From positions 1-59,750 of the forward strand of contig JAHFCO010000011.1 of the NCBI GenBank assembly GCA_023249475.1: a stretch of 59,750 nt of DNA, given 5' to 3'. Origin of the DNA: Bacillota bacterium (GTDB lineage: Bacteria > Bacillota_I > Bacilli_A > Erysipelotrichales > Erysipelotrichaceae). Below, piece by piece: positions 5,035 to 26,184 of the stretch (positions are counted from its first letter, which is position 1; the number at the start of each line of letters is the position of its first letter). The position numbers and the translations under genes were made by a program. The notes under the pieces were generated by a model. It worked only from the letters and a program-made list of their open reading frames with translations, was not told the DNA's origin and did not search any database.

Positions 5035-6365
5035 CAAAGTTTTCCCTTATCCGCCAGTTTCGCGCGGATGAGGTCGGATGTTGCGAAGTCTTTCTCCGCT
5101 TTCGCCTGATTGTAGGCTTCATAATCGTCCCGGTCTTCCTGGGTCAGTTCGACAACGGGGAAATCGATGCCGAAGACATCCAGTTGTCGGCGTAAGGCTT
5201 GATAATAGGATGCGACGATCGTCGCATCGGGTGTGCGGCTACGCAGTGCCTGATTCAACGGTTTCATCGTTTCAAAGAGGGCCATGAAGCCGTTGGGGGT
5301 GTTCAAATCGTCATCCATCGCATCGAAGAAGGCGGTCATGCTGGCTTGATCCGCCGGACCTTCCAGCGAAAACCCGCTGAGTTGCGCCTTGATTTCGGCT
5401 TGTTTCAGTACGGCCTCGACTTTCGCGAGTTCCGTCTGCGCCTGGACGACCGCTTCCTCGGAGATGTTGAGGGGGGCGCGGTAATGCGCCATCAACAGCA
5501 TCCACCGTGTCGCGTTGGCCCCGATCTTGGCGATGATGTCTTTCGCCAGCATCACGTTGCCCAAGGACTTGGACATTTTCTCCCCGTCGATGTTCAGCAT
5601 CCCGTTGTGCATCCAGGTATTGGCGATCCCGTGACCGAAGAGGGCTTTGGATTGGGCGACTTCGTTGTCATGGTGGGGGAACTTCAAGTCCATCCCGCCG
5701 CCATGGATGTCGATCATGTCGTGGAAGCGGTCGTTGATCATGACGACGCACTCGGTGTGCCATCCCGGACGACCTCTTCCCCAGGGGGAATCCCATTGGA
5801 TCCCTTCCTGCGTCTTCTTCCACAATGCGAAATCCAAGGGGCTTTCTTTCTCGGTTTCTTCTTCGATCCGTGCTCCGACCAACAGGTCGTCGACGTTCTG
5901 TTTCGAGATTTCCCCATAGTTATCCACTTTATTGACCCGGAAATACACATTCCCGTCGACGTTGTAGGCGAACCCTTTGTCTTCCAGCGCCTTGATGAAG
6001 GCGATGATCGCATCCATCGTGTCCGTGACTTTCGGGGCGTAGGTCAACGGGCGGGTATGCAGGCTGTCCCGGACGGCGTTGTAGGCGTCGATGTAACGTC
6101 GGGTGATGACCTTCTCGTCCACGTTCTCAGCGATCGCCTTCTGGATGATCTTGTCATCCACGTCGGTGAAATTACTGGCGTAAACCACGTTCATTCCATG
6201 CGCTTCGAAAAGCCGACGCAGGGTGTCGAACACGATGATCGGACGTGCATTCCCGATATGCGCTTCGTTGTACACCGTCGGTCCGCAGACATACATATGG
6301 ACTTCCCCCGCATGACGCGGGACAAATTCTTCATTCTTGTTGGTTTTTGAGTTAAAGAGTTTCAT
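5034..6365 (-). CDS. cysS: Cysteinyl-tRNA synthetase
   Basis: A 443-residue class I synthetase. Visible motifs are the zinc ligand Cys27 (Y-V-C-G-P-T), HIGN at 36-39 (HIGH motif), the zinc-binding G-W-H-T-E-C and H-H-D-N-E stretches, and the KMSKS loop near residue 262. It charges tRNA-Cys. The start at 6365 has GAGGTGG upstream; an ATG ten codons earlier has none. The protein ends at the typical C-terminal helix (DLIRAKLADKGKL) that is slightly shorter than in B. subtilis (466). It is the first gene of cysS-mrnC-rlmB-sigH. Confidence 0.97.
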   Translation of the reverse strand: MKLFNSKTNKNEEFVPRHAGEVHMYVCGPTVYNEAHIGNARPIIVFDTLRRLFEAHGMNVVYASNFTDVDDKIIQKAIAENVDEKVITRRYIDAYNAVRDSLHTRPLTYAPKVTDTMDAIIAFIKALEDKGFAYNVDGNVYFRVNKVDNYGEISKQNVDDLLVGARIEEETEKESPLDFALWKKTQEGIQWDSPWGRGRPGWHTECVVMINDRFHDMIDIHGGGMDLKFPHHDNEVAQSKALFGHGIANTWMHNGMLNIDGEKMSKSLGNVMLAKDIIAKIGANATRWMLLMAHYRAPLNISEEAVVQAQTELAKVEAVLKQAEIKAQLSGFSLEGPADQASMTAFFDAMDDDLNTPNGFMALFETMKPLNQALRSRTPDATIVASYYQALRRQLDVFGIDFPVVELTQEDRDDYEAYNQAKAEKDFATSDLIRAKLADKGKL

Positions 6366-25297: not shown

Positions 25298-25504
25298 TCA
25301 ATGCGGGGAGAAGCGGCCGAGGAAGACGTGCGGGGCGATGCCGTTGCTGTCTTGGATGTTTCCCCATGCGGTATGCAAGCCTCTGGCGGCATTGGGGCTG
25401 ACGTTACCGATGCTTTGGGTCGGAACGGCGGGATGCGCGAATGTCGTCAACGTGAAGGCCATAAGCAACACGAGGGTAAGAATAAGCGTCGTGAGTTTTT
25501 TCAT
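25298..25504 (-). CDS. Small secreted peptide, unknown function
   Basis: A 68-residue protein with a clear signal peptide (MKKLTT, hydrophobic core 7-18, likely cleavage after T-T-F-A). The predicted mature peptide is about 45 residues, has no cysteine, four or five histidines including the first and the last residue (starts H-P-A-V-P, ends R-F-S-P-H), and one Trp. No family recognised. AAGGAGGTGAATCA is a near-perfect ribosome binding site, suggesting strong expression. It has its own promoter and terminator. Candidate roles such as metal binding or signalling are speculation. Confidence 0.8.
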   Translation of the reverse strand: MKKLTTLILTLVLLMAFTLTTFAHPAVPTQSIGNVSPNAARGLHTAWGNIQDSNGIAPHVFLGRFSPH

Positions 25505-25597: not shown

Positions 25598-25626
25598 ATC
25601 ATATCGTAAATATTGCGGACAATCAA
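25598..25626 (-). promoter_or_regulatory. Promoter of the secreted peptide gene
   Basis: Minus-strand TTGATT (25621-25626), 17 bases, TATGAT (25598-25603). The -35 overlaps the stop codon of the riboswitch-controlled gene. Leader of about 85 bases. Confidence 0.65.
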
Positions 25627-25985
25627 TTGATTTGACCGTCAAACCATATTCTTTTGCGGACGTTCTCGCGCACCAGGATTTTCGCTTCGATCAGGTTCAG
25701 CACGACGGTCCCCAGCTGCATGTTCCCCTTCTTCCCTTCTGCGCTTTGATTCAAGAACGCCATGTCCCCGATCCACTCGATAGGCAGGATCGACGTGCAA
25801 TGAAGCGGGCCAACAGCTTCCCACCCGTCACAGACGAACACCCCGTCTTCGATGCATCTTCGTAGGACGTTCCGCAACCCTTCTTCCTGATCCAAGTCGA
25901 TGGCGACCCCGCGATAGGTCGCCTCCCCCAAGCCGCGGTAGACTTTCAATACGTTCCATAGGTCAAAATTCGTGTAGATTCGCAT
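25623..25985 (-). CDS. Protein of unknown function controlled by a SAM riboswitch
   Basis: A 120-residue soluble protein that I do not recognise. It begins MRIYTNFDLW, has a G-V-F-V-C-D-G-W-E-A-V-G stretch in the middle and an I-L-V-R-E-N-V-R-K-R basic C-terminal part; no membrane segment or signal is seen. Two cysteines (about 63 and 73). AAAGGGAAATC precedes the ATG at 25985. Upstream is only a SAM-I-like riboswitch and its terminator, so expression should rise when S-adenosylmethionine is scarce, pointing to sulfur, methionine or methyl metabolism. Confidence 0.72.
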   Translation of the reverse strand: MRIYTNFDLWNVLKVYRGLGEATYRGVAIDLDQEEGLRNVLRRCIEDGVFVCDGWEAVGPLHCTSILPIEWIGDMAFLNQSAEGKKGNMQLGTVVLNLIEAKILVRENVRKRIWFDGQIN

Positions 25986-26001
25986 GATTTCCCTTTCCGA
26001 C

Positions 26002-26150
26002 CAAAATAAAATCCCCATCTGAAGACGGGGATAGAAAAAACGAACGTTCTTTCCCTATCTTCCGGGTTTCCCCGCAGGATTTCGCACCTTGCGTATGCAG
26101 GTTGCGGTACGGCGACGAGCCTGTCTCTTCCGTACTCTTCATAGGTCGAT
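26002..26150 (-). ncRNA. SAM-I-like (S-box) riboswitch with terminator/antiterminator
   Basis: On the minus strand: P1 CCTAT (26141-26145) pairs with ATAGG (26054-26058); after it come GAAGAG, a P2 arm UACGG/CCGUA, the S-box core CCGCAACC, P3 CCTGC/GCAAGG, the conserved GGTGC-AAATCC-TGC stretch, P4 CGGG-GAAA-CCCG and GGAAGATAGG. An antiterminator GATAGGGAAA (26059-26050) / TTTTTTCTATC (26040-26030) competes with P1 and with the base of the terminator ATCCCC...GGGGAT (26011-26032) that is followed by TTTATTTT. The P2 loop is shorter than the usual kink-turn form. SAM should cause termination before the 120-residue gene. Confidence 0.82.
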
Positions 26151-26184
26151 TTCAGTGTAGCATATTCTCCGCAAGTTTGCTTAC

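Follow-up and report, generated by a model that had tools for sequence, protein, structure and literature searches.

The window analysed here, a stretch of 59,750 nucleotides from an Erysipelotrichaceae genome (contig JAHFCO010000011.1, positions 1 to 59,750), carries on its minus strand an S-box leader followed by a gene for a 120-residue protein, P0001. S-boxes are classical regulators of methionine and SAM genes. In the direction of transcription, the features of the locus are:

26154..26172, minus strand: likely promoter of the extended -10 type, TATGCTACACT, immediately preceding the aptamer, from a reading of the sequence
26052..26147, minus strand: SAM-I (S-box) riboswitch aptamer (RF00162, 54.0 bits, E 1.1e-9)
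26025..26060, minus strand: predicted antiterminator, formed by the P1 3' strand GAAGAUAGGG and the terminator 5' arm CCCCGUCUUC, from truncated-leader folding
26011..26032, minus strand: intrinsic terminator, ATCCCCGTC TTCA GATGGGGAT and then the T-rich tail TTTATTTT (9 pairs, 5 GC)
25623..25985, minus strand: open reading frame of P0001, with an AAAGGGA-type ribosome-binding site

The S-box was the single above-threshold Rfam match when the whole window was searched with cmscan, and it covered the full length of the RF00162 model (1-108) with 54.0 bits against a gathering threshold of 44.4. In the Rfam alignment, the aptamer kept all eight positions that contact SAM in the known S-box structures (U7, G11, C44, A45, A46, U57, G58 and U88 in T. 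tengcongensis numbering). The pseudoknot between the P2 loop and J3-4 was completely paired (CAGG/CCTG), and in other leaders it displayed different pairings with the complementarity kept. The 3' strand of the P2 kink-turn read GUCG-CC versus the consensus uaUGAAg, and one tandem G.A pair seems to have been lost, to judge by the alignment; the same change was present in the leader of a homologue from another family (G519, see below). Folding of the window leader was better than that of its dinucleotide shuffles (z -3.9), none of 200 being as good. The window riboswitch is a normal member of the known class with one kink-turn deviation.

The terminator hairpin (26032..26011) had a folding energy of -13.5 kcal/mol. 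When its 3' arm was removed, GAAGAUAGGG of P1 paired with CCCCGUCUUC in the folded leaders of both the window and G001 (Erysipelotrichaceae bacterium UBA12416, of the same genus as the window genome). These predicted alternative structures point to an exchange between P1, antiterminator and terminator of the usual S-box kind. The preliminary description, which had called a SAM-I-like riboswitch from its core motifs together with a P1, a competing antiterminator and an intrinsic terminator, was right in all these respects: RF00162 scored above its threshold, every quoted motif was found at the correct coordinates, and folding recovered the three elements. The promoter motif TATGCTACACT was also kept in G001; since a consensus promoter scan gave no match at 26154..26172, we infer the promoter from the sequence itself. 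Compared with RF00162 S-boxes in general, the leader is therefore alike in its full-length match, SAM-contact positions, pseudoknot and structural exchange, and differs in its kink-turn and in its target, an unassigned protein instead of the usual methionine or sulfur gene.

The dN/dS pattern indicates that P0001 is a real but quickly evolving gene. Over the first 110 codons compared between the window and G001, dN/dS was 0.32 in frame, whereas the shifted frames gave 0.69 and 2.3; in the flanking genes it was 0.09-0.12, so that P0001 has evolved about three times faster than the genes adjoining it. An in-frame ATG further upstream, at 26018, is unlikely to be used because it falls inside the terminator. 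The gene stands alone, in an ordinary chromosomal site that is common to the sister species and is not part of a prophage, and it encodes a soluble protein in which we found no enzyme or membrane signature. We compared this protein, which the preliminary description had been unable to assign, with Pfam, NCBIfam and the PDB, without a match, and with the PADLOC models, again without a match up to E 0.5. Searches of PHROGs gave only sub-threshold matches to phrog_12028 (E 0.017 and 0.3), which were set aside, and tblastn against phages and plasmids found none. A profile of the nine family members described below returned only noise from Pfam and the PDB, a winged-helix match (E 0.012) being too weak to retain, and an AlphaFold model of P0001, made from its sequence with that of one homologue, was discarded (pLDDT 42).

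G001 carries a P0001 homologue with 73% identity and the same neighbours. The aptamers of the two species were identical over 96 of 96 nucleotides and the leaders over 145 of 148 (three differences), at a synonymous divergence of 0.39 in the flanking genes.

Profile and sequence searches yielded eight homologues of P0001 and thus a family of nine, distributed over seven genera (that of the window included), two families and one class. Besides the window and G001, the members are G301, G305, G306 and G308, all Erysipelotrichaceae, and G519, G668 and G381, from another family of the same class. The initial homology to the proteins of G301, G305, G306 and G308 was too weak (hhalign gave E 0.003 with a probability of 10%, and the HMM E 0.17), and it was accepted only after bridging through G519, G668 and G381 and after leave-one-clade-out tests against 2784 background frames. 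The latter gave E values of 2.5e-8 and 9.3e-10 for the window pair, 5e-13 or better for the members of the other family (f14), 2e-8 or better for the G301/G305 pair, and 0.034 and 2.7e-4 for the G306/G308 pair, whose weaker values make these two the least certain members. The G381 homologue carries an extra N-terminal zinc-ribbon extension. Wider searches disclosed no additional member, the gene being absent from nearly all the other genomes searched, and weak matches lying within long reading frames were judged to be due to chance. The genes of the family had no conserved metabolic neighbour, and their surroundings varied between genomes.

It had been proposed at the outset to see whether homologues also sit behind S-boxes, and an RF00162 match was present directly upstream of the gene in 9 of 9 members (leaders scoring 54 bits, 62-75, 48.7, and 50.9 and 55.8). 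Three of the genomes (G301, G305 and G306) were first located through their S-boxes. The other five of the eight homologues (G001, G308, G519, G668 and G381) were located by protein alone and the S-box was seen afterwards; since these finds had S-boxes in genomes with only one to three S-box matches each, the linkage is far beyond chance. P0001 and its relatives are a new protein family, coding and homologous across two bacterial families and strictly linked to a conserved S-box aptamer in the nine members found. Two tandem S-boxes preceded the homologue in G305 (contig C50; L101 / L177) and in G301 (contig C90; L142).

The S-box heading the P0001 homologue was the only one found in G519, G668, G381 and G308, and no S-box was detected in genus mates lacking the gene (three of G519 and one of G381); these calls of "only" and "absent" are provisional because several of the assemblies are incomplete (completeness 62 to 99%). 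The window genome has one other S-box, a sub-threshold match of 39.5 bits before metK (contig C24). Both are SAM-I aptamers before a single gene and presumably repressed by SAM, but the metK box has C43-G59 where that of the window has G43-C59, and its P1 is different, so that recent duplication of the metK box does not account for the window S-box. In our sample, the nearest relatives of the window aptamer outside its genus were the leaders of G668, G519 and G381, from the other family. Probably the gene and its S-box are passed on jointly, as a small unit that moves between genomes or is lost from them.

The majority of the S-boxes surveyed in Erysipelotrichaceae preceded metK, and the remainder stood mostly before genes of ECF-type transporters or of small soluble proteins without assignment. 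We considered a single family for all these small proteins and rejected it, as they fall into at least three unrelated sequence groups. In one genus, S-boxes headed an ECF-type S-component gene, mostly followed by an ABC ATPase gene (L055, L062, L063, L065, L068, L070, L072, L073, L075, L080, L082-L084), and these S components are candidates for a methionine-related transporter. Their leaders are of the same G43-C59 subtype as the window's and have the same spacing; their genes, however, encode membrane proteins, whereas P0001 is soluble and alone. A metN-type gene lay behind an S-box in a related family. Two leaders from G186 (contig C162, L057) and G189 (contig C27, L059) were 95% identical over the 218 nt before the start codon but led into unrelated genes, as if, from the sequences, the coding part had been exchanged behind a fixed leader. 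G190 had two leader copies (contigs C4 and C9; L060 and L061), the second without its gene and with only the start codon and a few codons left. A 55-bit S-box match spanning 119 nt preceded the gene of a sigma-70-family sigma factor in G299 (contig C242, L112).

Riboswitches have been described as rare in phages (PMC9004378). In contigs of gut Firmicutes phages we found 57 loci with the same S-box subtype, and the six that were sampled, including that of the complete Ruminococcus phage NatCom_28274, passed the Rfam threshold. A family of proteins of about 98 residues was the target in 23 of the 57 and metK in 17. A C5 DNA methyltransferase gene adjoined 12 of the 23 small-protein loci and metK was near 6 of them, with 0 of 30 control contigs in either case; because several of the phages are near-identical, the independent loci are fewer than these counts. 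In NatCom_28274 (PV036439.1, L299), the S-box occupies 5827-5950 and the gene 6001-6297, and the same arrangement was seen in L216, L219, L221, L223 and L218. As in the window, an S-box stands directly before a small soluble protein without assignment, but the phage family is unrelated to P0001 in sequence (hhalign E 0.24, probability 0.2%), often lies beside DNA methyltransferase genes and, as group II of the small proteins, has a confidently predicted structure (pLDDT 92). Foldseek and VIA-align searches with this model gave no significant solved relative, which does not by itself prove a new fold. It appears from these surveys that S-boxes may commonly head variable accessory genes in Erysipelotrichaceae and on phages. 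Among open papers we found nothing on unassigned S-box targets in Erysipelotrichaceae or on phage S-boxes; as only open papers were searched, this does not establish priority.

We believe that the probable explanation for these results is a SAM-OFF transcription attenuator controlling a stand-alone accessory gene for coping with SAM shortage. That SAM binds, that it turns the gene off and whatever P0001 does are inferences on our part. Against this explanation count the deviating kink-turn and the lack of a conserved neighbour, domain or fold (Pfam, NCBIfam, PADLOC, PDB, AlphaFold) that would tie P0001 to SAM chemistry. When SAM is plentiful, it would bind the aptamer, P1 would close, the terminator would form and the gene would be off; as SAM falls, the P1 3' strand would pair with the terminator 5' arm, and the polymerase would read through into the gene of the 120-residue soluble protein. 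P0001 would then probably help the cell to manage with little SAM; it might lower SAM consumption, for instance, or tune an enzyme that uses or makes SAM. A link to SAM economy is plausible because the pattern of an S-box before an unassigned protein reaches phages, where a different protein family lies beside DNA methyltransferases and SAM synthetase. The P0001 family thus offers an experimental handle on responses to low SAM other than making more of it.

The preliminary description had gone further and proposed P0001 as a candidate for the metabolism of methionine, SAM or sulfur, in the role of a transporter accessory, a methyl-recycling or a regulatory protein; an enzyme would be a further form of such direct participation. 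Its riboswitch with attenuator parts before a protein without assignment is real; the metabolic placement is still a proposal, given the lack of a conserved metabolic neighbour, the patchy distribution and the roughly threefold faster evolution. It is true that S-boxes whose targets have a known function nearly always control methionine, SAM or sulfur genes, that metK and ECF-type genes in Erysipelotrichaceae and a metN-type gene in a related family conform to this, and that the G668 homologue adjoins a rhodanese-like gene. Nevertheless, the gene is alone with varying neighbours, it is missing from nearly all other genomes searched, and its product is far more variable than those of the adjoining genes and bears no enzyme or membrane signature. 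We regard direct participation in this metabolism as rather unlikely, and P0001 is unlikely to be a transporter or one of the core enzymes for methionine; a part as an accessory factor or in conflicts deserves at least as much weight as a metabolic one.

The quick evolution and patchiness of the family also fit a conflict with phages or rivals. The S-box could serve as an alarm for SAM depletion, caused for instance by phage enzymes that degrade SAM or by intense methylation of viral DNA, and the protein would be a defence or counter-defence factor. Phage SAMases are known as a means of counter-defence (PMC7877911). Such an alarm would agree with leader and gene being inherited together but patchily, with the fast evolution of the family, with the replacement of a gene exactly at the start codon behind near-identical leaders in a related genus, and with the phage pairs of S-box and small protein, enriched over controls in neighbouring methyltransferase and metK genes. 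We nonetheless consider it improbable, since the phage family has no detectable relationship with P0001 and its loci include near-identical phages, P0001 matches no PADLOC model, and the window locus is chromosomal and shared by the sister species. On the broader view that S-boxes in Erysipelotrichaceae and gut Firmicutes phages were recruited as SAM-depletion sensors for fast-evolving, exchangeable small proteins in conflicts over SAM or DNA methylation, with P0001 as one such effector, we place little confidence; for the phages themselves, S-boxes before small proteins or metK next to DNA methyltransferases suggest that SAM sensing may also serve virus-host competition. S-boxes controlling antisense RNA are known in clostridia and one G190 leader copy has lost its gene, but a SAM-responsive RNA or leader as the functional product, with an incidental reading frame, is hardly credible in view of the in-frame purifying selection on P0001, its protein-level homologues across families, its ribosome-binding site and the lack of a gene on the opposite strand.

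Returning to the stand-alone attenuated gene that we favour, a short gene lies downstream of it at 25504..25298 on the same strand. It encodes a 68-residue putative secreted peptide and, between the two species, had a dS of 0.11 versus about 0.4 in its neighbours, a low value that may reflect RNA constraint or recent exchange.
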